Shown one piece after another: positions 24,751 to 47,643 of a stretch of 64,000 bases of DNA. The position numbers and the translations under genes were made by a program. Each line of letters opens with the position of its first letter. The stretch's first letter is position 1. Source of the DNA: an uncultured bacterium. Its GTDB lineage: Bacteria; Bacillota; Clostridia; Lachnospirales; Lachnospiraceae. The stretch lies in contig CANRWP010000010.1 in assembly GCA_947643595.1 (NCBI GenBank), positions 1-64,000 on the forward strand. Reading direction: 5' to 3'. The notes below the pieces were generated by a model. The model was not told the DNA's origin and did no database searches. It worked only from the letters and a program-made list of their open reading frames with translations.

Positions 24751-24754
24751 TATT

Positions 24755-26386
24755 ATGATCACAAATCCGATATTGCCGGGATTTAACCCGGATCCCTGTA
24801 TTTGCAGAAAAGGAGAGGACTATTATCTGGCGGTGTCCACTTTTGAATGGCTGCCGGGTATTCCGATCTATCATTCAAAAGATCTGAAAAACTGGGAGAT
24901 ATACAGTCATGTGTTCTCGGAGGGACACAGCATTGATCTGCGCAGACTTCCCTCCGCAAAAGGGATCTGGGCCCCCTGCCTGACTTATTGTGAGGAAGAG
25001 GATCTGTTTTATGTTGTCTACGGCGTGATGAATTCCATGAACGCAAGGTATTTTGATGTGGACAATTACCTGATTACGGCGAAAGATCTGCGGGGACCGT
25101 GGAGCGATCCGGTCTACCTGCATTCCGCCGGGTTTGATGCCTCTTTGCTTCATGACAGAGACGGAAGGAAGTATGTGGTTTCTCTTGACTGGGAAACAAG
25201 AGCGGGATATGAGAAGCCGGGCGTGATCTGCCTGGCGGAGTACGATCCGGAAAAGAAAGAGATTATCGGCTACCCGAAACGGATCTGGAAAGGCGGCACG
25301 GACAGAGGCTGTATCGAAGCGCCGCATTTGTACCGCAGAGGAGATTATTATTATATTATGTGCGCGGAAGGAGGCACCGGCTATAATCATTGTGTAACGA
25401 TGGGACGCGCGGAAAATATCTGGGGACCCTATGAGAGAGATCCGGAAAATCCTATCCTCACATCTGCGCCGGGAGATTCGAATGAACGTCGGGACCCGGA
25501 TCATCTGAAACCAAAATACTATAATCCAGATTGTGAACTGCAGAAGGCGGGACACGGGAGTGTGATCGACACCGGGAACGGAGAGACATGGATGGTGTAC
25601 CTCTGCGCGAGACCTTTTGTTCCGGAATTGTGCTGCACGATGGGGAGGGAGACAGCGATTCAGCGGATGAGATGGACGGAGGAGGGCTGGCTTCGCACCA
25701 TAGACGGTTGCAATCTGGCGAGACGGGAAGCGGGCGAAAGTGATCTGCCGGAATACCCGATGAAGAAGATTCCTTCTTTTGACGATTTTGACAGTCCGGA
25801 GATCGGGAACTGGTATTATGCGCCGCGGATCCTGCCGCAGACTTTTGTGGATCTGAAAGCGAGACCCGGCTACGCCAGGATCAGAGGACAGGAATCCCGG
25901 ACTTCACTAAACCAGGTCAGTATTCTGGCGAGGAAGCTGACATCCGTCCACGCGAGGATCACAACAAAAATGGAGTTTGTGCCTGAGGTGCATCAGCACA
26001 GCGCAGGGCTGATCATGTATTATGACAACATGAATTACATCAATCTGCGGAAATACTACAGCGAAACTTTAGGGCGGAGCGCCATCTCGGTAATTCACCT
26101 GGAAAACGGAGAAAAGACGGAATTTCTGAATACCCGAACCCCGGTGGAGGACTGTCCGATCTATTTCCGGCTGACGATCCAGGGCAGGGAATCGGTTTTT
26201 TCCTGGAGCTATGACGGAGAAAATTATCAGAGGATCGGCAGAGTATTCAACACATCCAAATTCTCGGACGAGTACTGCAAATACGGTGAGTTCACCGGAA
26301 CGATGGTGGGGATCACCTGTGCGGATAAGATGAAACGGCAGCATTACGCGGATTTTGACTTTTTTGAGTATGAGGAGGATTTTTAG
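24755..26386 (+). CDS. Glycoside hydrolase family 43 (beta-xylosidase-like)
   Basis: A 543-aa enzyme with a five-bladed propeller (1-320) and a C-terminal beta-sandwich (345-543). The catalytic trio is visible: Asp13 in GFNPDPCI, Asp128 in SAGFDASLL and Glu188 in GCIEAPHLY, the spacing of XynB-type beta-xylosidases. It has no signal peptide. It is encoded 4 bp after the GH42 stop and closes the operon. Xylosidase is the best guess; arabinofuranosidase activity is possible. Confidence 0.92.
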   Translation: MITNPILPGFNPDPCICRKGEDYYLAVSTFEWLPGIPIYHSKDLKNWEIYSHVFSEGHSIDLRRLPSAKGIWAPCLTYCEEEDLFYVVYGVMNSMNARYFDVDNYLITAKDLRGPWSDPVYLHSAGFDASLLHDRDGRKYVVSLDWETRAGYEKPGVICLAEYDPEKKEIIGYPKRIWKGGTDRGCIEAPHLYRRGDYYYIMCAEGGTGYNHCVTMGRAENIWGPYERDPENPILTSAPGDSNERRDPDHLKPKYYNPDCELQKAGHGSVIDTGNGETWMVYLCARPFVPELCCTMGRETAIQRMRWTEEGWLRTIDGCNLARREAGESDLPEYPMKKIPSFDDFDSPEIGNWYYAPRILPQTFVDLKARPGYARIRGQESRTSLNQVSILARKLTSVHARITTKMEFVPEVHQHSAGLIMYYDNMNYINLRKYYSETLGRSAISVIHLENGEKTEFLNTRTPVEDCPIYFRLTIQGRESVFSWSYDGENYQRIGRVFNTSKFSDEYCKYGEFTGTMVGITCADKMKRQHYADFDFFEYEEDF

Positions 26387-28216: not shown

Positions 28217-29767
28217 ATGTATACAATACTGATCGTGGACGATGAGCGGAATGAGCGGGACGGCATAGAAAAACTGATCAAAAGATACCAGTACGATCTG
28301 CGCGTTTTACAGGCGGCGAACGGCGAAGAAGCTTTGAAAATTTTTGAGGATCAGGAGATCGATATATTGCTCACAGACATAAAAATGCCCTTTATGACAG
28401 GAATGGAACTGATCGAGCAGGTACATAAGGGGGGCTGGGAACCTGTATGCATTATCTACAGCGCCTACGGAGAGTTTGAGTATGCCCAGAATGCGATTAT
28501 GCTGGGGGTACTCCAGTATCTTCTGAAACCGATCCGACTTGAGGAATTTCAGAAACTGTTTCGGAAAGTATTTAAGGTATGCGATGAGAGAAAGCGCGTA
28601 GAACAGGAAAATATCCAGATAAGAAAAAGACAGGAGCAGTCTGCGAGGGAGAAGGCGGGCAGGGAGATCATTCGCTATCTGGAATCCGAGACGGAAGATG
28701 AGGGCGGCGCCTTTATAGAAATTTTTGCGGGAAATGAAGTGTTCCCGGTGATACTTTCCAACAACCTGTACCTGTTTTCCAGACATTGGGACGAGTATTT
28801 CCATAAAATAAAAGAATTGTTTACGGAGAATGTCCTCGCGATAAGCAGGGACGATGCGCAGGTGCTTCTATTGATCCCTTCCACAGGAAAATTTCAGAAA
28901 AAGGAGATCCATGCGGCATGTCAGAGTCTGATTGAGATCTCGCGCGACAGATACCAGTCGGATCTCTTTATTATTGTCGGGCAGCAGTGCGCCGATGCAA
29001 AACAGTTAAGAGCCGAATATGAGAAGATGAAAGATCAGGTTGACTATCAGTTTTTTATTTCCGGGAGCAGATGCTTGACAGATGATCAGGGAGCCTTTCT
29101 GAAAAAGGAAAAGGATATGCTGCCAGTCTATTTCAAAAAGATCCTCACCTGCGTGAAACTGAAAGATTTTCAGGCGATGCGGGAGGAATTCGGAAAGGCT
29201 TTTGAGTATGTGGAGGAGAATGTGGGATTCAGCTCCATCTACATAAAATATAATTTTTCCGAGATCATCAAAAAGTGTTATGAATGCCTCGGAAAAGAAA
29301 ACAGGATGATGAAGAGTCTTGAGAATATTTATGAAGCCCGAACGCTGGAAAAGATCAAAGAGATCGTGGAAGAGATCATACAGGAATTTACCGGGGAGGA
29401 AAAGGAATCCGGATCGGAAAACAGGGTGGTGGGACTGACAATAGACATGATCAGACGGGAGTATGGAAACAGCACGCTTTCGGTGGCGCTGCTTGCGGAG
29501 AAGCTGGGGATATCGGCGGCCTATCTCAGTTCCCTGTTCAAGCTGGAAACGGGGGAGAATCTCGCCAAATATATATCCAGATACCGGATGGAAAAGGCAA
29601 AAGAGTTTTTGGATACAACCAATTTAAAAATAGGGGATATTGCGGAGCGTGTCGGATATTTTAACGTCTCTTATTTTATTTCACTGTTTCATATAAATGT
29701 GGGCTGCAGTCCCGCGAAGTACCGGGAGAAGATAAAAGAAAATGAACAGAGAGAAGAAATCCTTTGA
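28217..29767 (+). CDS. YesN-type response regulator (AraC output)
   Basis: A 516-aa regulator with a receiver domain (1-120; acidic pocket VDDE, phospho-acceptor Asp54 in LLTDIKMPF, Lys in LLKPIRLEE). A long middle region follows, then a C-terminal AraC-type double helix-turn-helix (STLSVALLAEKLGISAAYLSSLF ... IGDIAERVGYFNVSYFISLF). Proteins of this class pair with YesM kinases to induce sugar ABC importers. It overlaps the kinase gene by 26 nt and probably controls both the downstream importer and the divergent mutarotase-like gene. Confidence 0.93.
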   Translation: MYTILIVDDERNERDGIEKLIKRYQYDLRVLQAANGEEALKIFEDQEIDILLTDIKMPFMTGMELIEQVHKGGWEPVCIIYSAYGEFEYAQNAIMLGVLQYLLKPIRLEEFQKLFRKVFKVCDERKRVEQENIQIRKRQEQSAREKAGREIIRYLESETEDEGGAFIEIFAGNEVFPVILSNNLYLFSRHWDEYFHKIKELFTENVLAISRDDAQVLLLIPSTGKFQKKEIHAACQSLIEISRDRYQSDLFIIVGQQCADAKQLRAEYEKMKDQVDYQFFISGSRCLTDDQGAFLKKEKDMLPVYFKKILTCVKLKDFQAMREEFGKAFEYVEENVGFSSIYIKYNFSEIIKKCYECLGKENRMMKSLENIYEARTLEKIKEIVEEIIQEFTGEEKESGSENRVVGLTIDMIRREYGNSTLSVALLAEKLGISAAYLSSLFKLETGENLAKYISRYRMEKAKEFLDTTNLKIGDIAERVGYFNVSYFISLFHINVGCSPAKYREKIKENEQREEIL

Positions 29768-31391
29768 GAGACAGCTGAAAAAGAGTTTTGTGCTGATCAT
29801 CATGATACCGGTACTCCTTTTGGGAACGTTTATCCTGTTTTCTTCTTTCAGATATGTGCAGAAGGAGAGGCTGGTGGAGCTGAACAACCGTATAGACCAG
29901 AATGAGATCGATCTGGAAAACAGGATGGAACAGAGCAAGAAATCTCTTGTCTATGCGGTCAGCAATTATACACTGCAGGATTTTCTGGAAATCGATACCG
30001 GAAATTTTATGAAATTGAATGAAGCTTCCAAAAATGTGAGTCCGTTGCTGTATAATACGGTACTCTCCAATCAATATTACAGGAAACTGAGGATCTATAC
30101 GGATAAAAATTATACGATGATGGACGACCTGCTCCGCTCCTCGGAGGAAGTACAGGGGGAAGCGTGGTATGCTGAGACCGGAGAGACGGACGAAATAGGA
30201 TGGTGGTTTCAGGGAGAGGAACTATTTATTACGAAACGGATCAGAACATCCTATCCGGTAAAAACGTTGGGGGTTATGAAAGTGGATCTGGATACGGATC
30301 TCTTTCGGGAGAGCTTCGGCGTTTTGGAAAAGGTGCCGTTATATGTCCGGATATTGGATCAGAACGGGACTGTCTATGAATATGGAAATGCAGAATACGC
30401 TCAGACAGCCGGGTTTGTCAGGACAGATCCGCTTGGAGATTCCGGGTGGAATATCCGGTATACGGTGGACAAAAGCTATTTCCATCAGGAGGTTGCAGGA
30501 CTGTTGCTGCCGATGTTGATCATCGCGGCGGTGCTCTGTATCGTCTGGATCTCCATACGCATGATCTCCAAAGTATTGTTGAGGGATATTGTTACTTTAG
30601 TACAGGAAGTAAATGAGATCCAGAGAGGGAACCTTGATGTGGAGATCAGGGAATCTGAGATAGAGGATGTGGATATTCTGGCGAGAAGTTTACAGAGCAT
30701 GATGAATCGGATCAAACAGCTGATACGGCAGGTATATGTAAAAGAGATCGAACGCCAGCATATGGAGCTGGATCTGTTGCAGGCAAAGATCAATCCGCAT
30801 TTTCTGTATAATAATCTGTCGGCAATCAACTGGCTGGCGCTTGACTGTGGCCAGGACAGGATATATGAGATCACCACAGAGATGGCCGCTTTTTATAGAA
30901 CGGCGTTAAATAAAGGAAAAAATATTGATAAACTTTCCGTGGAGATCATGAATATCCGAGCCTATGTCAGACTGCTTTCGATAGCGCATGAAGAGTCCTT
31001 TGATGTGGAATATCAGATAGATGAGAAACTGCTGGAATACAAAATTCCGATCTTTATCTTACAGCCACTGGTGGAGAACGCGATGGAGCATGGGATCGAT
31101 GAACTGCGGAATCGGAGGGGTTTTCTCAGGATCTCGGTTTATAAGGCAGATGAAAAATATATGGAGCTCTCTGTGTATGACAATGGGATGTCGCTGTATG
31201 AAAAGACAGGAGGAGGGGTAATGCCCGTTACAGATTACGGGTATGGAACGGGAAACGTGCATAAGCGGATACAGATTTTGTGTGGAGAGGATTGTGGCCT
31301 TACCATATCTGCGAATGAGACGGGCACGACTGCTGTCGTGAGACTGAAAGAAGTCAGAGCGGTAGAGATGCTGTCAGAAAAGGAATCCTGA
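29742..31391 (+). CDS. YesM-type sensor histidine kinase
   Basis: A 549-aa kinase with two membrane helices (about 15-35 and 248-270) bracketing a large extracytoplasmic sensing domain, then HAMP. The LytS/YesM-type His_kinase box is QAKINPHFLYNNLSAINWLA with the phospho-His, and an ATPase domain follows (LVENAMEHGID). The reading frame starts inside the yesN 3' end, indicating coupled translation. It likely senses an extracellular sugar, perhaps together with the binding protein encoded next. Confidence 0.93.
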   Translation: MNREKKSFERQLKKSFVLIIMIPVLLLGTFILFSSFRYVQKERLVELNNRIDQNEIDLENRMEQSKKSLVYAVSNYTLQDFLEIDTGNFMKLNEASKNVSPLLYNTVLSNQYYRKLRIYTDKNYTMMDDLLRSSEEVQGEAWYAETGETDEIGWWFQGEELFITKRIRTSYPVKTLGVMKVDLDTDLFRESFGVLEKVPLYVRILDQNGTVYEYGNAEYAQTAGFVRTDPLGDSGWNIRYTVDKSYFHQEVAGLLLPMLIIAAVLCIVWISIRMISKVLLRDIVTLVQEVNEIQRGNLDVEIRESEIEDVDILARSLQSMMNRIKQLIRQVYVKEIERQHMELDLLQAKINPHFLYNNLSAINWLALDCGQDRIYEITTEMAAFYRTALNKGKNIDKLSVEIMNIRAYVRLLSIAHEESFDVEYQIDEKLLEYKIPIFILQPLVENAMEHGIDELRNRRGFLRISVYKADEKYMELSVYDNGMSLYEKTGGGVMPVTDYGYGTGNVHKRIQILCGEDCGLTISANETGTTAVVRLKEVRAVEMLSEKES

Positions 31392-31407: not shown

Positions 31408-31512
31408 AGTTAAAAAATCCGATATTTATATAAAAATTTTTGGATAGAATTTGAAATATACCGTATTTAAAATAAAGATATCACTAAAAAACATATGGAA
31501 AAGGAGAAGACT

Positions 31513-32853
31513 ATGAAAAAGAAAATCGTGAGTTTGTTGACGGCAGCAATCGTAACGGCATCCCTGATCGTGGGATGCGGCAATACAGCACAGGATTCGA
31601 CAGGCGGGGAGACGGCGTCCGCCTCTGAGACGGACGCGGCGGGGGAAACCGCTCCTGCGGAAAGCGAGAGTGAAGGATGGGGCGATGCGCAGAAAGTGAC
31701 TTTCGCGTGCTGGTATGATGAAGACGATATGGTTCCCATTATCGCGGCCATCAACGAGAAGCTGGGCGGGGAGTATGTAGTGGAATATACCTACATAGCG
31801 AGAAACGATTATAACAATGTGCTGGGAACGCAGCTGGCGGCAGGGGAAGGGCCGGACATCGTTGCGGATGGCACGAACTTCCCGGCGAGAATAAAGGCGG
31901 GAAATGTAAAGGAGATAACAGGGGCGGCTTACCTGAAGGGCATCAATGAAGCGGGATTTGCGCTCTGCAAGGATGGAGACAAAATATACGGCATTCCCTC
32001 CTACGGCTGGTTTTCCGGCGTGTGGTACAACAAAGACATCTTTGAGCAGAATAAGGTTGCCGTACCGACAACTTTTGATGAACTGGTAGCAGCCTGCGAT
32101 GCGTTGTCCGCAAACGGCGTGCAGCCGATGGGCTTTGGACTTGCTGACGGCGATACCGGCGTGCATTCTCTGCTGGGGTATATCGAGAACAATTTTTATG
32201 AGGCTTCCGAGGAGGGAAAGAGCTTTGACGAGGAGTTCGCAAAAGGCTTAAAGACAATGGACGGCACATTAAACCAGTATGTGAAAGAGTGGAGCGTGTT
32301 GGTCGAGAAAGGCTACATCAACGACACCATGGTGGGTATTTCCAATGAGCAGGCGTTGAGCGACTTTATTGCGGGTAAAACGGCGATCTTCAACGGCGGC
32401 CCTTGGCAGTATTCCAATCTCCAGGATGCGGGAATGAATTTCGGCATGATTCCAAATCTTGGAAGTTCCACAGAGAATCAGTACTTAAACGGCGGCCCTG
32501 CAGTAAACTTTGGCATCAATGTGAACACCAAAAACGAGAGCGGTGCGGAAAAGCTTATGGAAGCGCTTGCCTCTGTCGAAGTGCAGCAGGCTTTCGTAGA
32601 CGCAAATGTGGGCGGTTTCAGCTATAAGGAAGGCGTAAAGGTAGATATTCCGGATGAATATGAGGCGGTAAAGGATATTCTGGAAAACGGCAACGTTGCC
32701 TGCTGCTGGGACAGATGGAGCGTCAATATGCCGTCACAGTCCCTGTTCGACGAGGCGGTATCACAGATGCAGGGTCTTGCCGCAGGAAGCATCACGCCGG
32801 ATGATTTTGTGAAGGCGCTGGATGCAAAGGCTGAGTCCATCAGATACGAATAA
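31513..32853 (+). CDS. Sugar ABC transporter substrate-binding lipoprotein
   Basis: A 446-aa extracellular binding protein with a lipoprotein signal (AAIVTASLIVGCG, Cys22). An acidic Ser/Thr/Glu linker leads to a family-1 solute-binding fold (VTFACWYDEDDMVPII ... GIPSYGWFSGVWYNKDIFEQ). The start at 31513 follows AAGGAG; the track start six codons upstream is less likely. It feeds the two permeases encoded downstream. No ATPase gene is linked, as is usual for these loci, where a shared MsmK-type ATPase serves several importers. Confidence 0.93.
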   Translation: MKKKIVSLLTAAIVTASLIVGCGNTAQDSTGGETASASETDAAGETAPAESESEGWGDAQKVTFACWYDEDDMVPIIAAINEKLGGEYVVEYTYIARNDYNNVLGTQLAAGEGPDIVADGTNFPARIKAGNVKEITGAAYLKGINEAGFALCKDGDKIYGIPSYGWFSGVWYNKDIFEQNKVAVPTTFDELVAACDALSANGVQPMGFGLADGDTGVHSLLGYIENNFYEASEEGKSFDEEFAKGLKTMDGTLNQYVKEWSVLVEKGYINDTMVGISNEQALSDFIAGKTAIFNGGPWQYSNLQDAGMNFGMIPNLGSSTENQYLNGGPAVNFGINVNTKNESGAEKLMEALASVEVQQAFVDANVGGFSYKEGVKVDIPDEYEAVKDILENGNVACCWDRWSVNMPSQSLFDEAVSQMQGLAAGSITPDDFVKALDAKAESIRYE

Positions 32854-32890
32854 GACAGAAAATAAGAAGTTGAAAAGACAGGAATGATTC

Positions 32891-32919
32891 ATAAGGGGCT
32901 GCCGGAAACAGCCCCTTAT
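32891..32919 (+). promoter_or_regulatory. Intercistronic stem-loop between binding protein and permease
   Basis: ATAAGGGGCTG and CAGCCCCTTAT form a perfect 11-bp stem with a 7-nt loop (CCGGAAA) and no T-run. Such structures behind binding-protein genes protect the upstream mRNA and lower permease expression. The role here is inferred. Confidence 0.7.
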
Positions 32920-32949
32920 GTAAAATCAGAGATCAGAGGGGAACAGGTT

Positions 32950-33840
32950 ATGCAGAAAAAGACGAAACTGAAAAATGAACTTCCGTATATATTGATGGTC
33001 ATACCTGCATTGGCTATATTTATCACATTTTTTATTTTGCCGCTCATCTATACTTTTAAATATAGTTTTTACAACTGGACCAGCTATTCGCCGGATATTG
33101 TTTTTAAGGGACTGGAAAATTATAAGAAATTACTGGCGGACAGGACAGTGGTGGTAGGAATCAAAAATTCACTGATCTATGCCATTGTAAACGTACTGCT
33201 GCAGAATATTATCGCGCTGCCGGTGGCGGTAGTATTAAACACAAAATTCCGCGGGCGAAATATATACAGAGCGGTCTTCTTCTGCCCGGCGGTTCTGAGC
33301 ACGCTGGTAGTGGGCTATCTCTGGAAATTTCTGCTGTCCGCCAGCGATTACGGATTTGTGAACCAGTGTCTGGGGAGGCTTGGAGTGGAACCGGTCAACT
33401 TTCTGGGAAACGGGGAGATCGCGCTTGCGGCGATCATCCTGACGCAGGTCTGGCAGTGGTTCGGCTGGGCGATGGTCATTTATCTCGGAAATCTTCAGAG
33501 TATAAGCGACGATTTGTATGAGGCGGCATCCATCGACGGTGCGGGGATATTTGACAAATTCTGGCATATCACGATCCCCGGACTGGCGCCGGCGATCAAG
33601 ATCAATCTGGTGACGGGAATGATATCGGGATTGAAGGTATTTGATATTGTCATGTCTCTGACAAACGGTGGTCCGGCGCACCAGACGGAGACGATTCTGA
33701 CATTGATGTTCCAGAAATTTTCGGAGGGAAATTATGGCTATGCCTCTTCCTTCGGCATTGCGTTTCTGGCGATCAGTATGCTGCTTGCATGTATTTTATT
33801 AGGCTCTTTCAATAAATGGGAAAGGAGGCTCGGACAATGA
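32950..33840 (+). CDS. Sugar ABC transporter permease (MalF/UgpA-like)
   Basis: A 296-aa protein with six membrane helices and the EAA loop (YEAASIDGAGIFDKFWHITIPGL) that docks the ATPase. The start ATG at 32950 (MQKKTKLKNELPYI) has GAGGGG upstream; the track start at 32884 would place the hairpin inside the gene and is rejected. It overlaps the next permease gene by 4 nt. Confidence 0.92.
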   Translation: MQKKTKLKNELPYILMVIPALAIFITFFILPLIYTFKYSFYNWTSYSPDIVFKGLENYKKLLADRTVVVGIKNSLIYAIVNVLLQNIIALPVAVVLNTKFRGRNIYRAVFFCPAVLSTLVVGYLWKFLLSASDYGFVNQCLGRLGVEPVNFLGNGEIALAAIILTQVWQWFGWAMVIYLGNLQSISDDLYEAASIDGAGIFDKFWHITIPGLAPAIKINLVTGMISGLKVFDIVMSLTNGGPAHQTETILTLMFQKFSEGNYGYASSFGIAFLAISMLLACILLGSFNKWERRLGQ

Positions 33841-34670
33841 AAAAGAAGACGGTGTTTGTGACTGGTCTGAAATATGTTTTTCTGTCGCTGCTTGCGCTGG
33901 TTGTACTGATTCCGATCTATTATCTGGTCGTAACGACATTCAAGAGTTCTACGGAGGCGGCGGTTGCCCCGATGGCATTGCCCTCCTCATGGGATTTCAG
34001 CGGTTATGTGGATGCGTTTCAGGCGATGCAGTATCCGCAGGCGTTTAAGAATACATTTCTTATTACCTTCATCTCGGTGGCCGGGCTGATTCTGGTGTCG
34101 TCCATGTGCGGGTATGTGCTGAACAGAAGAGAAAAATTCAAAATTACAAAGGTGATCTTTCTTTTGATTTTATCTGGGATCATGTTTCCCTATCAGATGT
34201 CCATTCTGGGACTTTATAAGGTGATCAGAGGGCTGCATCTGATGAACTCCCTGACGGGCGTGATTCTGGTGGATATTGCGATCAATATTCCGTTTGCGAC
34301 ATTTTTGATCAAAAGCTTTGTCAGTACGATTCCGATAGAGCTGGAGGAAGCGGCTAAAATAGACGGAGCAGGCGTTTCCCGCACTTTCTGGACTATCACG
34401 TTTCCACTGATGAAACCGATGATTGCCACGGTTGCGATCCTGAACACGCTGACGATCTGGAATGATTTCATCGGGCCGTTATACTTTTTGCAGTCGAGGG
34501 AAAAGGACGTGATACTGCAGGAAGTATACAGGAATATCGGGCAGTTTTCCACGGACTGGAGCAGTCTGTTCCCGATGATGGTTTTAGGGGTGCTTCCGTT
34601 AGTATTATTCTATCTGTTCATGCAGAGATATATTATTGGAGGCGTGATGAGTGGTTCCGTAAAAGGGTAA
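33837..34670 (+). CDS. Sugar ABC transporter permease (MalG/UgpE-like)
   Basis: A 277-aa, six-helix permease partner with the EAA loop EEAAKIDGAGVSRTFWTITFPLM. It starts at the ATGA overlap with the upstream permease, behind AAAGGAGG. Together with that gene and the binding protein it forms an importer for an oligosaccharide handled by the downstream enzymes. Confidence 0.92.
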   Translation: MKKKTVFVTGLKYVFLSLLALVVLIPIYYLVVTTFKSSTEAAVAPMALPSSWDFSGYVDAFQAMQYPQAFKNTFLITFISVAGLILVSSMCGYVLNRREKFKITKVIFLLILSGIMFPYQMSILGLYKVIRGLHLMNSLTGVILVDIAINIPFATFLIKSFVSTIPIELEEAAKIDGAGVSRTFWTITFPLMKPMIATVAILNTLTIWNDFIGPLYFLQSREKDVILQEVYRNIGQFSTDWSSLFPMMVLGVLPLVLFYLFMQRYIIGGVMSGSVKG

Positions 34671-34690: not shown

Positions 34691-36613
34691 ATGAGTGCAG
34701 AGAAAAAACGGTATGAGTTTGTGATAAAAGAGGATTCGGAAAAAAGGCTGGATTTTCTGGGGAGCAAAGGCGATCCGGCAAAAATGAACTGGGTGCAGGG
34801 AAATCGGAAATGGGGCACGGTGATCTGCCCGGATACGCTTGCCGTAAAAACGGAAAGAGCGGTGACGGGAAGCGGCAGGCTGTATGAGAGTTACCGGTTT
34901 ACAAATATCACCGCTTTCCCTGTGGTTTTGCAGGAGACGGATGTGGGAATCTACGTCACCTTTCATGATAATTATGAGGCGGCTTCGGAATGTATGGAGA
35001 GAAGATGTCATACGCATCTTTTCTGCGGAGAGGAAGCCGCTTATATTCAGGCCTTTCGAATGGGAGGGCGTCCGCCGCACCTGGGACTGCAGCTGACGAA
35101 GGGGAGTGTCATCTCCTACAGTGTTGAGCGAGATGAAGAAAAAAGAAGCGATGACCGGGGAGACTTTATCCTGCATCCGTCTTTTCCGCTGATGGAGCCG
35201 GGGGAGACTGTGGAGATAGCATGGGAACTTTTCTGGTTTGAGGATCAGAAGGATTTTGAGGATCAGTTATCAGAGAAAGGCGAATTCCCGTTTGTCAAAG
35301 CAGAGAATGTGACTTTTTTCCCGGGGGAACAGATGAAATTTGAGGTCCATATACGTGAGAAGGCGGATGGGGCGGAAGTTTACGCGGAACATAACGGGGA
35401 GAAAATCCCCTGCCGGATACGGGTGGAGAAGGAGACGATTACGGCGAAAACAGCCGGGGACACACAGGAGGAAGGCGAATACAGATTCCATATAAACATT
35501 GACGGAAAAAAGACGTATGCCCTTCTGTATCAATGTGCGCATCTGGACAGAATGGTTCATAGGCGCTGCCGCTTTATTGCGGCAAAACAGCAGTATCTGA
35601 TGGATGGAAGCCCTTTGGACGGAGCCTATCTGATTTACGATAAGGAAGAGAACAGAATATATTACAGCCATCTGGACGATCACAACGGAGGGCGGGAACG
35701 CCTGGGAATGGGTGCGCTTGCCGCATTGTACCTTCAAAGAAATGAGGACAGAAAAGTATATGACAGCCTGATGCATTATCAGAGATATGTCTATCGGGAA
35801 CTGTATGACCGAAATTCAGGGACAGTGTACAATGATATCTGTCATAATAACGACTGGCACCGTCTGTATAATTATCCGTGGATGGCGGTATTCCAACTGG
35901 AAGTTTATCGGCTGACGAGGGATAGAAGCTGCCTGTCTGATGCATTTCAGACAATGTATCACTATTACCGGCTGGGAGGAGATAAGTTTTATGCGATCGG
36001 AATTCCGATGACGGAACTGCTCGATGAACTGGAGAAAGCGGAACTGCAAAAAGAGCGGGATTTATTAAAAGAGTGCTTTCTGAAACATGCGGATACGGTT
36101 TGGCAGACGGGGACAAATTATCCTGCATCGGAAGTTTCGTATGAGCAGAGTATTGTTGCGCCGGCGGTCAGTATTCTGTTGCAGGCGGAGAAAATAGAGG
36201 GAAAAGGAATCTATTTGAAAGAAGCTAAAAGACAGATGAAAGTGCTGGAATTATTCGGCGGGAGACAGCCGGATTATCACCTGTATGGTAACGCGGTCAG
36301 ACACTGGGACGGGTACTGGTTCGGGAAGAGGCGCATGTACGGAGATACATTTCCGCATTACTGGAGCGTACTGTCCGGCGTAGCCTATGCGCAGATGTAT
36401 GAAGTGACGGGGGAGGAAAATTATCGGCGAAAGGCGTCGTCGTCATTCAGGGGGTGCCTGAACCTGTTTGGCCGGGACGGATCCGCCTCCTGTGCCATGG
36501 TATTTCCAAAGTCGGTGAACGGGAGAGAGGCGGGTTACTATGATCCCTGGGCAAACGATCAGGACTGGGCCTTATATTATGCCTTAAAATACAGGGAGAT
36601 TACGGAGGGATAA
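34691..36613 (+). CDS. Unrecognised 640-aa six-hairpin-glycosidase-like protein
   Basis: I do not recognise a named family. The first ~270 residues look like beta-sandwich domains. The remaining ~350 are alpha-helical with aromatic-rich repeats typical of alpha/alpha-barrel sugar enzymes (HNDWHRLYNYPWMAVFQLEVY, HWDGYWFGKRRMYGDTFPHYW, YYDPWANDQDWALYYAL). Several Asp residues in these blocks (DGYWFG, YGDTF, NDQDW) could be catalytic. There is no signal peptide, so it acts in the cytoplasm. It lies between the importer and the GH112 phosphorylase, close to both, so it probably processes the imported glycan before phosphorolysis. Hydrolase or lyase activity cannot be decided from the sequence. 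Confidence 0.6.
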   Translation: MSAEKKRYEFVIKEDSEKRLDFLGSKGDPAKMNWVQGNRKWGTVICPDTLAVKTERAVTGSGRLYESYRFTNITAFPVVLQETDVGIYVTFHDNYEAASECMERRCHTHLFCGEEAAYIQAFRMGGRPPHLGLQLTKGSVISYSVERDEEKRSDDRGDFILHPSFPLMEPGETVEIAWELFWFEDQKDFEDQLSEKGEFPFVKAENVTFFPGEQMKFEVHIREKADGAEVYAEHNGEKIPCRIRVEKETITAKTAGDTQEEGEYRFHINIDGKKTYALLYQCAHLDRMVHRRCRFIAAKQQYLMDGSPLDGAYLIYDKEENRIYYSHLDDHNGGRERLGMGALAALYLQRNEDRKVYDSLMHYQRYVYRELYDRNSGTVYNDICHNNDWHRLYNYPWMAVFQLEVYRLTRDRSCLSDAFQTMYHYYRLGGDKFYAIGIPMTELLDELEKAELQKERDLLKECFLKHADTVWQTGTNYPASEVSYEQSIVAPAVSILLQAEKIEGKGIYLKEAKRQMKVLELFGGRQPDYHLYGNAVRHWDGYWFGKRRMYGDTFPHYWSVLSGVAYAQMYEVTGEENYRRKASSSFRGCLNLFGRDGSASCAMVFPKSVNGREAGYYDPWANDQDWALYYALKYREITEG

Positions 36614-36617: not shown

Positions 36618-38819
36618 TTGTGTGCAGCTTGCAGAAAGGATGCGGTTATTGATATGAGAGGTGATTTTACGCTTCCGGGGGAATCCGGATATGAGAAGCT
36701 GACATTGGAGCTTGCCGAAAAATGGGGAGCCGATATGATCAGGGACAGCGACGGAACGAAATTGTCGGACGAACTTTTAAATGCCGGATACGGCATCTAT
36801 TCGACGGTCTGTGTGATCAGAGACCACAATGAGTGGGCGAAAAACAATCAGGACAAACTGCAGCAGACTTTCCTGATGGCAGGACCGGTTATGGCAGTGG
36901 AGCAGTCGGTGCGGATCGACCTGTTAAAAGAATATTTTGAAGAACAGTTTCGGATCAATGAGTCTCCGGAAAGTATAAAACTGTGGCAGGTTTTTGATCG
37001 GACAACGGAGGAGATTGTATCGGAAGATCAGTGGCGTTACGAGGCGGAACAGAAAACGGTGATGATTGAAGACTGCGTGCCCTGGCACAGCTACAGCGTG
37101 AATTTTCTGGCATACCGGATATGGGAAGAAATTTCCATGTACAACCATGTGACGAACGGATGGGAAAAAGAACATCTGATGCAGATCGATCCGCGCTATG
37201 AGGAAACGCAGCGTTATCTGCTCGACTGGATGAAAAAATGGTGCGAAGAACATCCGGCCACAAAGGTGGTTCGTTTTACGTCGATGTTTTATAATTTTGT
37301 CTGGATCTGGGGCAGCAGTGAAGAGCGCAGAAATATATTTACCGACTGGGGTTCCTATGATTTTACGGTAAGCCCTTATGCTCTGGCGCTTTTTGAAAAA
37401 AAATTCGGTTATAAATTGACGTCGGAGGATTTTGTCAATCAGGGTAAACTGCATGTGACGCATATGCCCTGCGATGGTAAAAAGAAAGATTGGATAGAGT
37501 TTGTCAATGACTTTGTGATAAATTTCGGAAAACAGCTGATAGAGATCGTACACAGCTTTGGAAAGCAGGCGTATGTTTTTTATGATGACAGCTGGGTGGG
37601 AGTTGAGCCCTATAATGGGAGATTTGAGGAGTTTGGATTTGATGGAATTATAAAATGTGTGTTTTCCGGATATGAGGTACGGATGTGTGCCGGCGTCCCG
37701 GTAAAGACTCATGAGATTCGCCTGCATCCCTATCTGTTCCCAACGGGTTTAGGCGGAGCGCCGACCTTTTCAGAGGGAGGGGATCCCACAGAGGATGCAA
37801 AAAATTACTGGCTTCATGTGCGCAGGGCTCTGCTGTGGCAGAAAATTGACCGGATAGGACTTGGTGGATATTTGCATCTGACGCAGGGGTATCCGGATTT
37901 CTGTGATTATATAGCACAGACTGCGGATGAGTTCCGAAAGATAAAAGAGCTTCATGCGCACGGAAAGCCACTCACGGCAAAAACAAGGGTGGCGGTTCTT
38001 CACAGCTGGGGAAGCATGCGTCCCTGGACGCTTTCAGGACATTTCCACGAAAGTGATGCACATGACCTGATCCACATCAACGAAGCTCTGGCAGGTATGC
38101 CGATAAAAGTTGACTTTTTGGACTTTGAAGATATCCGTGCGGGAAAATTGAAGGACTATGAGGTGTTGATCAACGCCGGAAGGAGCGGCGATGCCTGGAG
38201 TGGCGGGGCGGCATGGAAGGATGAGAAGATCGTATCGGAAATAACACGTTGGGCGTATGAAGGGGGAACTTTCATAGGAGTAAATGAACCATCTGCTGTT
38301 TCTGGCTTTGCTGCATTTTTCAGAATGGCGCATGTACTCGGGGTGGATATGGATAACGGGGACTATGTAAATCACGGAAAGTGGAAAGGAACCAAAAAAG
38401 AGGATACTTATTTTACAGAGGATAACATTTCGCTGTCCTGCAAAGAAGATATTTATGTCTGCTGCCGGGACACGGAAATTTTCTTAGAAGAGGATGGCTA
38501 TATAAAACTTTCCATGCACCAATTTGGCAAAGGAAAAGGCATCTATATGCCGGGATTCCGGTTTAGTGCAGAAAACAACAGATTGCTTTTAAAATTAATT
38601 TTATCATCGGGTAGAGAAACCTTAAAAGATTTGTATCAGGATGAAAATCCTTACATAGAAAGTGCATATTATCCAACGGATAAGATACGGATATTACTGA
38701 ACAATTCATCGAATGAACAAATAATTGCTAACTGCCCGGGAAAGAAAGGGAATATAATTTTAAAAGCATACGAGACGAAGATCATGGAAAATAATGTATC
38801 AGATGTTAAGCTATTATAG
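36618..38819 (+). CDS. GH112 beta-galactoside phosphorylase
   Basis: A 733-aa member of the GH112 family, which cleaves beta-galactosides with phosphate to give alpha-galactose 1-phosphate. Known members act on galacto-N-biose/lacto-N-biose or on galactosyl-beta-1,4-L-rhamnose. Family blocks: GDFTLPGESG ... WGADMIRDSDGT near the N-terminus, FDRTTEE, VPWHSYSVNFLAYRIW, and the proton-donor Asp324 in FYDDSWVGVEPYNG. The TTG at 36618 behind GGAGGG is a plausible start; ATG at 36654 (MRGDFTLP) matches relatives better but has a distant ribosome binding site. The rhamnose-mutarotase-like neighbour tips the guess towards the rhamnoside substrate. A terminator follows. Confidence 0.88.
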   Translation: MCAACRKDAVIDMRGDFTLPGESGYEKLTLELAEKWGADMIRDSDGTKLSDELLNAGYGIYSTVCVIRDHNEWAKNNQDKLQQTFLMAGPVMAVEQSVRIDLLKEYFEEQFRINESPESIKLWQVFDRTTEEIVSEDQWRYEAEQKTVMIEDCVPWHSYSVNFLAYRIWEEISMYNHVTNGWEKEHLMQIDPRYEETQRYLLDWMKKWCEEHPATKVVRFTSMFYNFVWIWGSSEERRNIFTDWGSYDFTVSPYALALFEKKFGYKLTSEDFVNQGKLHVTHMPCDGKKKDWIEFVNDFVINFGKQLIEIVHSFGKQAYVFYDDSWVGVEPYNGRFEEFGFDGIIKCVFSGYEVRMCAGVPVKTHEIRLHPYLFPTGLGGAPTFSEGGDPTEDAKNYWLHVRRALLWQKIDRIGLGGYLHLTQGYPDFCDYIAQTADEFRKIKELHAHGKPLTAKTRVAVLHSWGSMRPWTLSGHFHESDAHDLIHINEALAGMPIKVDFLDFEDIRAGKLKDYEVLINAGRSGDAWSGGAAWKDEKIVSEITRWAYEGGTFIGVNEPSAVSGFAAFFRMAHVLGVDMDNGDYVNHGKWKGTKKEDTYFTEDNISLSCKEDIYVCCRDTEIFLEEDGYIKLSMHQFGKGKGIYMPGFRFSAENNRLLLKLILSSGRETLKDLYQDENPYIESAYYPTDKIRILLNNSSNEQIIANCPGKKGNIILKAYETKIMENNVSDVKLL

Positions 38820-38850: not shown

Positions 38851-38891
38851 AGGCTTTACTATACTCTATCTTGTAGTAAGGCCTTTTTTTT
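38851..38891 (+). terminator. Rho-independent terminator after GH112
   Basis: AGGCTTTACTA (38851-38861) pairs with TAGTAAGGCCT (38874-38884) with one wobble, followed by a run of eight T. It ends the importer/GH112 operon. Confidence 0.88.
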
Positions 38892-41428: not shown

Positions 41429-42604
41429 ATGGATCATGCAAAAGAATCCCTGCGTCTGCACAGAGAGTGGCAGGGAAAAATTGAAGTGATTTCACGAGTG
41501 CCGGTGTCTTCCGGGGAAGATTTGTCCCTCGCCTACACGCCTGGAGTGGCGCAACCCTGTCTGGAAATTCAGAAAGACGTAGATAAGAGCTACGAACTGA
41601 CGAGAAGACATAATATGTGCCTCGTGGTGACGGACGGTTCGGCGGTGCTGGGACTGGGAGACATCGGACCGGAGGCCGGAATGCCGGTGATGGAGGGGAA
41701 ATGTGTTCTGTTCAAAGCATTTGGCGATGTGGATGCTTTTCCGCTCTGTGTGAAAACGAAGGATGTGGATGAGTTTGTCAATGCGGTGTATCTGATATCG
41801 GGCAGTTTCGGCGGAGTAAATCTGGAGGATATTGCGGCTCCGAGATGCTTTGAGATAGAGAAAAAATTGAAAGAAAAATGTGACATCCCCATTTTCCATG
41901 ACGACCAGCACGGGACAGCAGTCATCACGCTGGCGGGCCTGATCAATGCGCTGAAGGTGACCGGAAAGAAAAGAGAGCAGGTGAAGATTGTCGTAAGCGG
42001 CGCCGGTGCGGCGGCGATCTCCATCACAAAATTATTGCTGTCGGACGGATTCCAGGATATTACTCTCTGCGACCGCAAAGGAGCTATTTATGATGGTCGT
42101 GAAGAGGGCATGAATAAAATAAAAGAGGAGATGGCCCTCGTCACAAACAGAGAAAAGCGCAGAGGGAATCTCAAAGATGTCATCGTCGGAGCGGATATCT
42201 TTATCGGGGTGAGTGCGCCGGGAATGATGACACCAGAGATGGTGCGGACTATGAATAAAGACGCGATCATCTTCGCATGCGCCAATCCGACGCCGGAGAT
42301 TTTCCCGGAGGATGCAAAGGCAGGCGGAGCCCGGATTTGTGCGACAGGGCGCAGCGATTATCCCAACCAGATCAACAACGTACTTGCCTTTCCGGGAATC
42401 TTTCGTGGGACATTCGACGTGAGGGCGAACGATATCAACGACGAGATGAAGATCGCGGCTGCCTATGCACTGGCGGGTCTGATCACGGATGAGGAGCTGA
42501 ACGAAGAGTATATTATCCCGAAAGCTTTTGACCCGCAAGTCGGTAAGGCCGTGGCAAAAGCTGTGGCGGAGGCAGCCCACAGGACCGGGACAGCCAGGAT
42601 CTGA
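41429..42604 (+). CDS. Malic enzyme (NAD(P)-dependent)
   Basis: A 391-aa short-form malic enzyme that oxidatively decarboxylates malate to pyruvate. The catalytic N-domain shows LAYTPGVAQPC, VVTDGSAVLGLGDIGPEAGMPVMEGK and IFHDDQHGTAVI, with the Asp pair for the divalent metal. A Rossmann domain follows (VVSGAGAAAISITKLLL). GGGAGG precedes the ATG. It is the first gene of an eight-gene operon including a TRAP importer, where it may turn a malate intermediate into pyruvate. Confidence 0.95.
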   Translation: MDHAKESLRLHREWQGKIEVISRVPVSSGEDLSLAYTPGVAQPCLEIQKDVDKSYELTRRHNMCLVVTDGSAVLGLGDIGPEAGMPVMEGKCVLFKAFGDVDAFPLCVKTKDVDEFVNAVYLISGSFGGVNLEDIAAPRCFEIEKKLKEKCDIPIFHDDQHGTAVITLAGLINALKVTGKKREQVKIVVSGAGAAAISITKLLLSDGFQDITLCDRKGAIYDGREEGMNKIKEEMALVTNREKRRGNLKDVIVGADIFIGVSAPGMMTPEMVRTMNKDAIIFACANPTPEIFPEDAKAGGARICATGRSDYPNQINNVLAFPGIFRGTFDVRANDINDEMKIAAAYALAGLITDEELNEEYIIPKAFDPQVGKAVAKAVAEAAHRTGTARI

Positions 42605-42640
42605 TAAAAATATTACATGCGAAGGAAGAGAGGTAGCGCT

Positions 42641-43738
42641 ATGGGTTACAGAAAATTTGACTATGAAAAATTGAGGATGCTGGCGGAACTTGTCTTTGAA
42701 AAACATGGCTATTCCCCGGAGGATGCGGGGATTATCACGGATGTGCTTCTGAAAGCGGATCTGATGGGAATAGAATCTCACGGCGTGCAGCGCCTGACTC
42801 TCTATCCCTTCGGCATCAGCATCGGCAGGATCAGGGTAGATGCAAAGCCGGAGATCGTTAAGGAGACACCCCTCTCGGCTGTGATAGACGCTCACGATGG
42901 CATGGGGCAGCTGGCCGGTGTGAAGGCGATGAACCTTACGATCGATAAGGCAAAACAACACGGAATGGGCTTTACCGTGGTGAGAAATTCAAACCATTAC
43001 GGTATCGCGGGCTACTATTCCCTGATGGCGGCACAGGAAGGTCTGGCAGGTATCTCCATGACCAACACGCAGGCCCTTGTCGTGCCGACTTTCGGCAGGA
43101 AACCGCTTTTGGGGACAAATCCGATTGCCTTCACGGTGCCGGCAAAGCCTTATCCCTTCCATCTCGATATGTCAACCAGTGTGGTGACGGCGGGAAAGAT
43201 GGAAGTGTATGCCAAGAACAAAAAGCCATGCCCGGAGGGCTGGCTGGTGGATGAGAACGGCGCGGTCAACACGGACGCGGGTGTGTTTGTGAAAAATCGG
43301 GGGACAGGGCTGGGAGGTCTGCTTCCGGTGGGCGGAGCGGGAGAACTCTACAGCGGACATAAAGGATATGGAATGTCCATGATGGTGGAGATCATGACCG
43401 GAATCTTTGCGGGCGGTGTGACCAGCTCCGGCGTGAGAGCCGTGCCGGAGAAGGAGCTCTGCTGTCATATGTTCTGGGCGATGGATCCGGGGATGTTCTG
43501 CGACGACAGGGAAGAACTTTTCGGGCAGCTGTCCGAATTTTTACAGATGCTGAGAAATTCGGATAAAGCGGAAGGACACGAGCGGATCTATACGCACGGA
43601 GAGAAAGAATTTGAAAATATGGAGAAGGTGAAAAACTCCGGCGTGTCGATGAACGATGCGACATATGAGGAGATTGTTAAGCTGAGCGAGAAAATTGGGA
43701 TTTGTGCGGAAGATTATCTGAAGGAGGTGAAAGCGTAA
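42641..43738 (+). CDS. Ldh2-family 2-hydroxyacid dehydrogenase
   Basis: A 365-aa enzyme of the malate/L-lactate/ureidoglycolate dehydrogenase (Ldh2) family, which uses a non-Rossmann NAD(P) fold. Family blocks: LMGIESHGVQRL, DAHDGMGQLAGVKAMN, VRNSNHYGIAGYYSLMA with the catalytic His, and GTNPIAFTVPA. Members oxidise malate, sulfolactate, 2,3-diketogulonate partners and similar 2-hydroxy acids. The start at 42641 (MGYRKFDYEKL) has AGAGAGG upstream; the track start eight codons earlier is less likely. In this operon it probably oxidises the hydroxy acid that enters through the TRAP transporter. Confidence 0.92.
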   Translation: MGYRKFDYEKLRMLAELVFEKHGYSPEDAGIITDVLLKADLMGIESHGVQRLTLYPFGISIGRIRVDAKPEIVKETPLSAVIDAHDGMGQLAGVKAMNLTIDKAKQHGMGFTVVRNSNHYGIAGYYSLMAAQEGLAGISMTNTQALVVPTFGRKPLLGTNPIAFTVPAKPYPFHLDMSTSVVTAGKMEVYAKNKKPCPEGWLVDENGAVNTDAGVFVKNRGTGLGGLLPVGGAGELYSGHKGYGMSMMVEIMTGIFAGGVTSSGVRAVPEKELCCHMFWAMDPGMFCDDREELFGQLSEFLQMLRNSDKAEGHERIYTHGEKEFENMEKVKNSGVSMNDATYEEIVKLSEKIGICAEDYLKEVKA

Positions 43739-43850
43739 AAAAATGAATTAGGGAAAAGCTTATACAGGAGGTGGTGCCGAAGAAGAAAAGTTATGATTTG
43801 AAGTTTTTCAGTTATTTAGAGAAGGCAATGAAACAGAAGGGAGCATTAGA

Positions 43851-44897
43851 ATGAATAAAAGAGAAAAAATAATGGTTGCTATATTGATGTCTATGATTAT
43901 GCTGGCGGGTTGCGGAAGTCAGGCAGTGGCTCCGGAGAATACAGTCGAGAGTACTCAGGAGGAGACAAAAGAAGATGAGAAAAATGATCCGGAGATTACA
44001 ATTACAGCTGTTACGGTATTTGACAGTGGTACGGCTATCGCACAGGGTATGGAAAAAATGAAGGAGCTTTTGGAGGAAAAGACAGATGGTAAAGTGACAA
44101 TGGAAATCTTTCCTTCCGGAACAACAGGAGGAGAAAAGGAACAGGCAGAAGCTCTTGTATTGGGAGAGGTTGATATGGCGGCATTCGGAACATTGCCCAT
44201 TTCCATATATGCGCCGGAATATTCTTTTTTCGATTCACCGTTTGTATTTCGTGACAGGGAACATTTTATGAATGTCTGGAACAGTGAACTGGGTGAGGGG
44301 ATGCGGGAATCCATGTTGGAGAATAACGGACTTAAGACGATAGGAGTTATGGGACGCGGATACAGGCATATTACCTCTAATACACCGATAAACAGCATTG
44401 ATGATATTGCAAAACTTACGATCAGGACGCCGGAATCCGCGTTGTTTACGGATACATTTGGAGCGCTTGGGGCAACCTGTGTACCTATCGCATTGACAGA
44501 ACTTTTTACATCTCTTCAGACAGGCGTAGTAAATGCATCGGAAGGACCCTTTGACCAGATCGTGACAAATAAGTTATATGAGGTACAGGATTATATTACT
44601 CTGTCTAAGTATTATTACTCGATTTCCATGTGGCAGATGAACGCTGACTTTTTTGATGAGCTCTCGGAGGAATATCAGAATGCCGTAATGGAAGCTGCGC
44701 AGGAAGCGACGGAATATGCGACTGCTCTCGGGGAGGAAAGTGAGGAAGAATTAAAGAAAGTATGTGAAGACGCGGGATGCACGATCTTGGAGATGGAAAA
44801 TATGACGCCGTATCTGGAAAAGGTGCAGAGTGTGATGGACAAGTTTTTTGAAGAAAAATGGCCGGTGACATCTGCAGAGGAGATAGCTTCATATTAA
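43851..44897 (+). CDS. dctP: TRAP transporter substrate-binding protein (DctP)
   Basis: A 348-aa lipoprotein (signal MSMIMLAGCG, Cys21) of the DctP fold. FPSGTTGGEKEQAEALVLGEVDM, the TIRTPESALFTDTFGALGATCVPIALTELFTSLQTGVV block and the following NASEG segment are typical. It binds an organic acid outside and hands it to the DctQM membrane pair. Most DctP ligands are bound through a conserved Arg, here probably in KLTIRTPES. Confidence 0.95.
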   Translation: MNKREKIMVAILMSMIMLAGCGSQAVAPENTVESTQEETKEDEKNDPEITITAVTVFDSGTAIAQGMEKMKELLEEKTDGKVTMEIFPSGTTGGEKEQAEALVLGEVDMAAFGTLPISIYAPEYSFFDSPFVFRDREHFMNVWNSELGEGMRESMLENNGLKTIGVMGRGYRHITSNTPINSIDDIAKLTIRTPESALFTDTFGALGATCVPIALTELFTSLQTGVVNASEGPFDQIVTNKLYEVQDYITLSKYYYSISMWQMNADFFDELSEEYQNAVMEAAQEATEYATALGEESEEELKKVCEDAGCTILEMENMTPYLEKVQSVMDKFFEEKWPVTSAEEIASY

Positions 44898-44915
44898 AGA
44901 GAACGGAGGGATACC

Positions 44916-45386
44916 TTGAAAAAACTGTATAAGATTTTTGATGGGATTACAATGGCTATTTTTGTAGCAATGGTTCTGGTCGTGGTATTGCAGATTATTT
45001 TCCGGTTTATTTTAAGGATAAGCGTTCCGTGGACCGAGGAGTTGAGCAGGCTGCTCTTTATTTACATTGGTTTTTTTGGAACGGCAATAGCTGTGCGTGA
45101 GAAAGAACTGATCGTGATTGACCTGTTGCTGCAGAGGACACCGACAAAGGTACAGAAGGTTTTAAATGTATGCATTTACATTCTGAGCTTTGCTTTTTTT
45201 ACCATCCTGCTGATAGGAGGGATTGGAGTATTCAGGAAAGTAAAAGATACTTATTTTGCCACAATGAGTTTTGTCAGCAACGGATGGATTTATATAGCGC
45301 TTATCATCGGTATGGGGATGACTCTGTTGGACATGGTCTATTCTGTGATCATAAAAATCAGGAGAGGGGTGAGGGATGAACAATGA
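44916..45386 (+). CDS. dctQ: TRAP transporter small membrane subunit (DctQ)
   Basis: A 156-aa, four-helix subunit with the DctQ signature RISVPWTEELSRLLFIYIGFFGTAIA. It starts at TTG behind GGAGGG. The stop overlaps dctM by 4 nt. It forms the membrane complex with DctM. Confidence 0.93.
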   Translation: MKKLYKIFDGITMAIFVAMVLVVVLQIIFRFILRISVPWTEELSRLLFIYIGFFGTAIAVREKELIVIDLLLQRTPTKVQKVLNVCIYILSFAFFTILLIGGIGVFRKVKDTYFATMSFVSNGWIYIALIIGMGMTLLDMVYSVIIKIRRGVRDEQ

Positions 45387-46663
45387 TAAAATATTTTGCG
45401 ATATTAGTGGCCGCCTTTCTTCTGGGGTTGCCGGTGGCTGTTGCAATGGGAGGATCTGCGGTTGTCCTAATGATCCTGGAGAGAGGTATAACGGCATTCA
45501 GGCCGGAAGTTGTCGCCCAGAAGTCGGCATACGGATTAAATAATTTTCTGCTTTTATCGATACCACTGTTCCTGTATGCAGGTAAGATCATGAATACGGG
45601 AAGTATCACAAAAAGGATCTTTGAATTTGCAAAATCGTTAGTGGGATGGCTCCACGGCGGTCTTGGGCATGTCAATATTGTGGCGAGTGTGATATTTGCG
45701 GGAATGACAGGAACAGCTACTTCGGATGCAGCCGGATTGGGAGCGATAGAAATTGAAGCGATGAGGGAAGCGGGATATGACGATGATTTTACTTTTGCAG
45801 TTACGGGAGCCTCCTCTCTGATTGGTCCGATTATCCCACCGAGTATTCCGCTTGTTATCTACGGATTGATGACCAGTGTATCCATCGGGAAATTGCTGAT
45901 AGCGGGGATCGTCCCGGGTATCATTCTTGCGGGAGCTCTGATGACATATGTGGAAATTTACGCGGTCAGGCATCATTATCCAAAGGGGGAACGCTTTCAG
46001 ATAAAAAAACTCTGGAATGACTTCAAGCGGTCCGTTTTATCGTTGTTGACGCCTGTTATTATTATCGGAGGTATTTTAAGCGGTATTTTTACACCGACAG
46101 AAGCGGCGGCGATCGCATCAGTTTATGCAACAATTCTGACAGTTTTTATTTATAAAGAAGTAGACTGGAAAGCGCTGAAAAATATCCTGTTTGAGACGGT
46201 AAGAGACTCCGGGACTATCATGATGATCTGCTATTGTGCCTCTGTCTACGGATATGTTATTACAAGGTCGCAGTTAGCCGTAAAGCTGGCAGGAGCAGTT
46301 CTTGAAATATCAAATAATCCGTATGTCGTGTGTTTTTTACTGGTTGGATTTTTGCTGATAGTAGGTTGTTTCATGGAAAATCTGGCAACGATAACGATTT
46401 TGGCGCCGGTATTTTTACCAGTAATGGAAGCTGTTGGGATAGATCCTCTGGCATTTGGGATCATCATGATCCTGACGTTGATGGTAGGTTTGCTTACCCC
46501 GCCTTTTGGTATGGTTCTGTTTGTATTATGTAAGGTAGGGAATTTCCCGTTGACGCGAATGATAAAAGCGGTCGTACCGTTTATTATTCCGGTGCTGATA
46601 GTTATCGCGATCATGATCATGTGTCCCCAGATTATCACATTTTTACCGAATTTAGTATTGTAA
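45383..46663 (+). CDS. dctM: TRAP transporter large membrane subunit (DctM)
   Basis: A 426-aa subunit with about 12 helices. Family blocks: ASVIFAGMTGTATSDAAGLGAIEIEAM, GASSLIGPIIPPSIPLVIYG and TPTEAAAIASVYA. It is the Na+-driven translocation subunit of the TRAP importer. It overlaps dctQ and is followed by the two DapA-family genes. Confidence 0.95.
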   Translation: MIKYFAILVAAFLLGLPVAVAMGGSAVVLMILERGITAFRPEVVAQKSAYGLNNFLLLSIPLFLYAGKIMNTGSITKRIFEFAKSLVGWLHGGLGHVNIVASVIFAGMTGTATSDAAGLGAIEIEAMREAGYDDDFTFAVTGASSLIGPIIPPSIPLVIYGLMTSVSIGKLLIAGIVPGIILAGALMTYVEIYAVRHHYPKGERFQIKKLWNDFKRSVLSLLTPVIIIGGILSGIFTPTEAAAIASVYATILTVFIYKEVDWKALKNILFETVRDSGTIMMICYCASVYGYVITRSQLAVKLAGAVLEISNNPYVVCFLLVGFLLIVGCFMENLATITILAPVFLPVMEAVGIDPLAFGIIMILTLMVGLLTPPFGMVLFVLCKVGNFPLTRMIKAVVPFIIPVLIVIAIMIMCPQIITFLPNLVL

Positions 46664-46724
46664 ACATACAGCAAAGAGTTTCTGGTTGAGAGCCGAATGA
46701 CTGAAAAAAATAGGAGGTGAGATT

Positions 46725-47603
46725 GTGGCAAAAGAAATAAAAGGGATCATCCCGCCCATCGTGACGCCCTTTGATGCGGACGGTGCAATCAACAGCCGGC
46801 TGATCGAGAAAGAGATGAAGATATGCATAGAAGCCGGTGTGCATGGTCTGAGCGTGGGTGGCAGCACAGGCGAGGGGCCTACGCTGCGCGACGAGGAACT
46901 GGTTGAGCTGATCCACATTGCGAAAGGGTACCTGAGGGAAGACCAAAGCCTTGTGTGCGGGGTCATGAGAACCTGTACGAGGGACGCGGTGCGAGCGGGA
47001 CTTGCGGCGAAGGAGGCGGGAGCGGACGCCATCATGGTGACGCCGACGGCCTACAATGTACTTGTGCCGAACGAGCAGGGCATGTTCGATTTCTACAGCA
47101 CCATCTCAAGAGAAGTACAGATGCCGGTCATTATCTATAATGTGATTCCGCAGAACACTATTTCTCCGGGATTGTTTAAGAGACTGGTGGAGGAGACGGA
47201 GTATGTACGCGGCGTAAAACAGAGTGTTGGCGGCGTGCAGGCACTTTATGCCATGAGAATGGCAGTTGGAGACAGAGGAAATATTTATGCGGCGACAGAT
47301 GATATGCTGTACACCTGCTACGAACTGGGCGCATGCGGAGCGATCTCCGCGATTCTCTCCATATTTCCTGAAGAGTGCGTGGAGATGTGGAACTGCCAGC
47401 AGAGTGGAAAAAGAGAGAGGGCCTTTGAGATTCAAAATCAGCTCTATGATAAATGGCAGTGTCTGGGTGGAAATCAGTTCCCGATTCGCCTGAAATATGC
47501 GCTGGAGGTTTTGGGTAGGGAACCGGGATACTGCAGGAGTCCGATCACTTATCTCCCGGAGGATGAAAAAGCGAGAATTCGGGAAGCATTTGCAGAGAAG
47601 TAA
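46725..47603 (+). CDS. DapA-family aldolase/lyase 1
   Basis: A 292-aa class I lyase of the DHDPS/N-acetylneuraminate lyase family. The Schiff-base Lys lies in VRGVKQSVGG and the catalytic Tyr in IIYNVIPQ. The usual GTTGE loop is GGSTGEG, so one of the two hydroxyl residues of the DHDPS relay is Ser and the loop resembles non-DHDPS members. It starts at GTG behind AGGAGG. In this operon it is more likely a catabolic pyruvate-releasing aldolase or dehydratase than a lysine-pathway enzyme. Confidence 0.85.
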   Translation: MAKEIKGIIPPIVTPFDADGAINSRLIEKEMKICIEAGVHGLSVGGSTGEGPTLRDEELVELIHIAKGYLREDQSLVCGVMRTCTRDAVRAGLAAKEAGADAIMVTPTAYNVLVPNEQGMFDFYSTISREVQMPVIIYNVIPQNTISPGLFKRLVEETEYVRGVKQSVGGVQALYAMRMAVGDRGNIYAATDDMLYTCYELGACGAISAILSIFPEECVEMWNCQQSGKRERAFEIQNQLYDKWQCLGGNQFPIRLKYALEVLGREPGYCRSPITYLPEDEKARIREAFAEK

Positions 47604-47643
47604 GAAGAACAAAATAATGAAAAGAAAGAAAGAGGAGAATACC

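Follow-up and report, generated by a model that had tools for sequence, protein, structure and literature searches.

A PL27-family polysaccharide lyase encoded between an ABC importer and a GH112 phosphorylase in a Lachnospiraceae bacterium

Introduction

As of 2021, three enzymes of polysaccharide lyase family PL27 had been characterised, all from Bacteroides (BACCELL_00875, BACFIN_07013 and BT0263); they are L-rhamnose-α-1,4-D-glucuronate lyases, by which Rha is freed from gum arabic through β-elimination at GlcA (PMC8377490). The same reaction on Rha-GlcA is carried out by FoRham1 of PL42 (former GH145); unlike PL27, this enzyme is a seven-bladed β-propeller and has only 3–5% identity to PL27 (PMC8377490).

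PL27 is poorly sampled, and the locus described here reveals a large Bacillota branch of the family with a conserved subclade that stands behind an ABC importer, often without the usual follow-on hydrolase. The locus lies in a stretch of 64,000 nucleotides (the window) from an uncultured Lachnospiraceae bacterium, the genome of which is 87% complete.

Results and Discussion

Gene and operon

The frame at 34691–36613 (+) is open from an ATG and encodes 640 aa; a ribosome-binding site rich in purines (AGGGGG) stands ahead of it. Along the locus, the genes are arranged as rhaM (−), response regulator, histidine kinase, SBP, permease, permease, PL27, GH112. The AraC-type response regulator (28217–29767, +; PF00072, PF12833) and the sensor histidine kinase (29742–31391, +; PF06580), both syntenic in related loci, are followed by the solute-binding lipoprotein of a carbohydrate ABC importer (31495–32853, +; PF01547/PF13416; lipobox-like IVGCG near the N-terminus), by ABC permease 1 (32884–33840, +; PF00528; syntenic in L002–L004, L006, L007, L016, L018, L049 and L068) and by ABC permease 2 (33816–34670, +; PF00528; syntenic). 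A gap of 20 bp separates the latter from the lyase frame; the GH112 gene begins at most about 40 bp 3' of it. A likely rho-independent terminator (38851–38884, +; 13-pair stem, then TTTTTTT) likely closes the SBP-ABC-PL27-GH112 operon. The reading frame, and its place between importer and phosphorylase, are as given in the original prediction.

No signal peptide-like or hydrophobic segment was found at the N-terminus of the 640-aa protein, in contrast to the SBP of the same operon; among the Bacillota relatives, such a segment was seen in L077 only (crude hydrophobicity measure).

Assignment to family PL27

The 640-aa protein looked unknown because no match to it was returned by Pfam or NCBIfam (Pfam: sub-threshold noise only), and it had been described as a sugar-processing protein that fits no family, a candidate for a new glycoside hydrolase or lyase. 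Against the PDB, the protein matched BACCELL_00875 (5no8, 5nok; phmmer, E = 2.7e-122, query residues 61–632), with 39.2% identity over 561 residues in the family alignment; a profile of 53 sequences gave E = 1.6e-183. The AlphaFold model was built from the 53-sequence alignment (pLDDT 91.7, pTM 0.92; a single-sequence model of pLDDT 38 was set aside) and was matched to 5no8 by Foldseek (TM 0.92/0.88, E = 2.4e-56); the next different protein followed at E = 2.7e-07, weaker by 49 orders of magnitude. The known family PL27 gains a new member in the 640-aa protein, whose novelty is modest. The claim that it fits no family falls with this match to a family of known activity, and a new family, for which the silence of Pfam and NCBIfam would speak, is ruled out for practical purposes by the full-length agreement with BACCELL_00875 in sequence and fold. 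What stands of the earlier description is a sugar-processing enzyme, possibly a lyase, of β plus α/α layout.

The N-terminal β-rich domain, of β-sandwich type, covers about residues 9–281 (34715–35533, +) according to the secondary structure of the model and the PL27 layout (PMC8377490); the C-terminal (α/α) barrel, about residues 285–640 (35543–36610, +), holds most of the invariant residues and is by homology the catalytic domain. Full-length homology, the β-sandwich plus (α/α)6 fold and nearly all invariant barrel residues are shared with BACCELL_00875; the differences are the identity of about 39%, the missing signal peptide, the ABC-linked Bacillota operon, nine changed conserved positions and a genome in which GH88/105 was not found.

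Other assignments were rejected. DUF5695 was returned by Pfam with E = 0.12, below the cut-off and not significant; neither PF07470 (GH88/GH105) nor PF10022 (GH154) was reported for the protein at E ≤ 1. The unsaturated glucuronyl hydrolases of GH88/GH105 share the (α/α)6 barrel, and a weak Foldseek match to 1vd5/2fv0 was obtained (E ~3e-4; TM only ~0.31 by query).

Conserved residues

The aromatic/Asp blocks noticed at the outset are conserved far beyond chance, in full-length homologues from dozens of genomes: RHWDGYWFGK, GD..PHYW and D618/NDQD do not vary among 53 sequences, and BACCELL_00875 shares almost all residues of these blocks. It likewise keeps most of the barrel residues invariant in Bacillota (R391, Y393, N394, E481, E485, Q486, R537–G541, H556, Y557, N622–D625). 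Munoz-Munoz et al. (2017), in the primary paper on PL27, reportedly proposed a tyrosine as the base and GH105 as the enzyme that takes off the unsaturated uronate. The barrel tyrosines Y393, Y434 and Y557 are invariant in the Bacillota relatives and kept in BACCELL_00875.

Nine positions, invariant or almost invariant in Bacillota, differ in BACCELL_00875 (family alignment; here/BACCELL_00875): S144/E201, H162/D221, N332/D390, R335/A393, D382/S439, Y426/F482, H466/T522, Y542/H598 and N610/D666. N332 and R335, both invariant in Bacillota, belong to the motif D330-x-N332-x-x-R335-E-R337 (35678–35701, +), and the Bacillota state is kept at all nine positions, these two included, in an alphaproteobacterial relative (Croceibacterium plasmid). 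Several of the nine lie in the model in barrel loops adjoining invariant residues, which suggests pocket differences from BACCELL_00875. The substrate may differ, since nine conserved positions are changed and the characterised members are all from Bacteroides; should it do so, PL27 would gain a specificity, and rhamnosyl-uronate sugars would have a cytosolic route through a lyase and a phosphorylase. No residue swap private to the ABC-linked subclade was found in the alignment with the other Bacillota PL27 sequences, so the sequences give no ground for setting it apart from them.

Relatives and synteny

Relatives were found encoded in 265 stretches, of which 80, nearly all from Bacillota, were kept; among 299 sampled genomes from the same taxonomic family, a match was obtained in six, one of these with weak partial hits only. 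The window protein falls into a clade of 11 rows (SH-aLRT 99), and the RR-HK-SBP-ABC-PL27 cluster, or part of it on truncated contigs, was found in nine of the 11; the SBP-ABC-PL27 cluster was found also at two Paenibacillus loci outside this clade. The PL27 protein is mostly ordinary; its apparently intracellular, ABC-linked setting is less usual.

Some loci deserve separate mention. The PL27 relative L085/L087 (G016:C17:15687-17544) is split in two, which may reflect either a broken gene or an error of assembly; that of L084 carries an in-frame TAA. The Gastranaerophilales (Melainabacteria) MAG of L078 has a PL27 nested among Bacillota sequences, which suggests transfer or contig misassignment. 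A distant GH42 (25–28% identity to the GH42 of the window) stands near PL27, mostly directly adjacent, at eight Bacillota loci (L010, L037, L062, L066, L069, L073, L075, L079); GH115, GH123, GH127 and GH28 were each seen near PL27 at a single locus.

Proposed pathway and follow-on enzymes

The locus is best read as encoding a cytosolic PL27 lyase that acts on imported short rhamnosyl-uronate oligosaccharides (probability about 0.72). The SBP/ABC importer would bring in a short oligosaccharide with α-L-rhamnosyl-1,4-uronate at its non-reducing end (D-glucuronate in the characterised PL27 enzymes); in the pocket of the (α/α) barrel, H5 of the uronate would be removed by the lyase and the 4-O-linked rhamnosyl group expelled by β-elimination, giving a 4,5-unsaturated uronate together with L-rhamnose or a sugar that ends in rhamnose. 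Rhamnose would pass onward through RhaM and RhaA. Besides the match to PL27 in sequence and fold, the kept barrel residues and the lack of a hydrophobic N-terminus, this reading is supported by the conserved RR-HK-SBP-ABC-PL27 synteny, by the sole rhaM locus found in the genome (27337–27990, −), 6.7 kb upstream of the lyase, and by the presence of RhaA in the genome. Against it count the patchy occurrence of RhaA across the clade and the textbook next steps GH88/105, GH154 and KduI, which were not found. The rhaM-like protein (PF05336, two stretches) is a tandem-duplicated L-rhamnose mutarotase-like chain of 217 aa with two rhaM domains; no homologue of it was found among the PL27 loci searched.

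A GH105 for the unsaturated product is the typical partner of a PL27 enzyme, not its defining feature. GH88/105 (PF07470) and GH154 (PF10022) were not found in the window's 87%-complete genome. GH88/105 is present in 36 of 40 other PL27 genomes; the four in which it was not found are G299 (L002), G300 (L003, Clostridium porci), G313 (L016) and G324 (L037), and GH154 was not found in these either. Both are missing in two isolate genomes of the window's clade. KduI was not found in the window's genome, G300 and G313. Absence of GH88/105 was commoner in the ABC-linked clade (4/10 vs 1/31; Fisher p = 0.009), an enrichment that is indicative only, the genomes being non-independent and some of them drafts.

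These five PL27 genomes without GH88/105 and GH154, of which four belong to the ABC-linked clade, could also be taken, together with the several conserved positions that differ from BACCELL_00875, as signs that the chemistry was lost or changed and that a hydrolase or other activity now sits on the PL27 scaffold. We hold this to be very improbable: the conserved Arg, Tyr, His and acidic residues of the barrel are intact, GH88/105 accompanies PL27 in most other genomes, and it is unnecessary for a free unsaturated uronate. With the rhamnosyl-uronate lyase, the missing GH88/105 would be explained if the substrate were a Rha-uronate disaccharide, because the free unsaturated uronate formed from it would open spontaneously and need no such enzyme.

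GH112 phosphorylase

The GH112 gene (36654–38819, +; PF09508, 6.5e-197) has a frame open from TTG 36618; its start is likely ATG 36654, because the region homologous to BlGLNBP begins there. In the tree, the window GH112 stands on a branch opposite BlGLNBP and the lacto-N-biose-type copies, among them the second GH112 of the genome at C5, and it carries a six-residue insertion in the loop that follows PYLFP, aligned to PYFFP-TF of BlGLNBP. The second activity known for GH112 is that of galactosyl-rhamnose phosphorylase (PMC8950772), and the window GH112, on a branch apart from the lacto-N-biose type, is probably of this kind.

In the window, as in L004 and L018, the gene directly 3' of PL27 is GH112, and a GH112 start stands just past PL27 at the contig end of L016. 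This adjacency would fit another substrate for the same PL27 chemistry: Gal-β-1,4-Rha would be released from Gal-Rha-uronate oligosaccharides, e.g. derived from rhamnogalacturonan I (RG-I), and converted by GH112 to Gal-1-P and rhamnose. The separation of the window GH112 from BlGLNBP and its loop insertion are consistent with such a role, as are other members of its branch that adjoin GH88/105 genes (G314, G301, G306, G305), as expected for pectin use, and the change of N332, R335, D382, Y426, H466 and Y542 in the Rha-GlcA lyase BACCELL_00875. We nevertheless regard it as unlikely. Of the 80 loci, only about 5 have GH112 next to PL27; the GH112 of L064 is only 34% identical to that of the window, like the lacto-N-biose-type copies; and Clostridium porci (L003/G300), which has the ABC-PL27 cluster, has only two GH112 genes, both of lacto-N-biose-type length. 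In RG-I, moreover, it is GalA and not GlcA that stands next to Rha, and a different stereochemistry of elimination would be needed. Still somewhat more doubtful is a fuller form of this scheme, in which a Bacillota PL27 branch with a changed pocket would act as an intracellular exo-lyase freeing galactosyl-rhamnose from imported Gal-Rha-uronate oligosaccharides, coupled to GH112, with the uronate leaving free and unsaturated and GH105 not needed.

Neighbouring clusters

Just upstream, at 20134–26386 (+), a separate glycan cluster encodes a GH5-like protein, an MFS_2 sugar transporter, a GH42 β-galactosidase and a GH43. A further cluster at 41429–48564 (+), with malic enzyme, Ldh_2 dehydrogenase, TRAP DctP/Q/M and two DHDPS-family aldolases, then a GntR regulator, probably serves sugar-acid or organic-acid catabolism.
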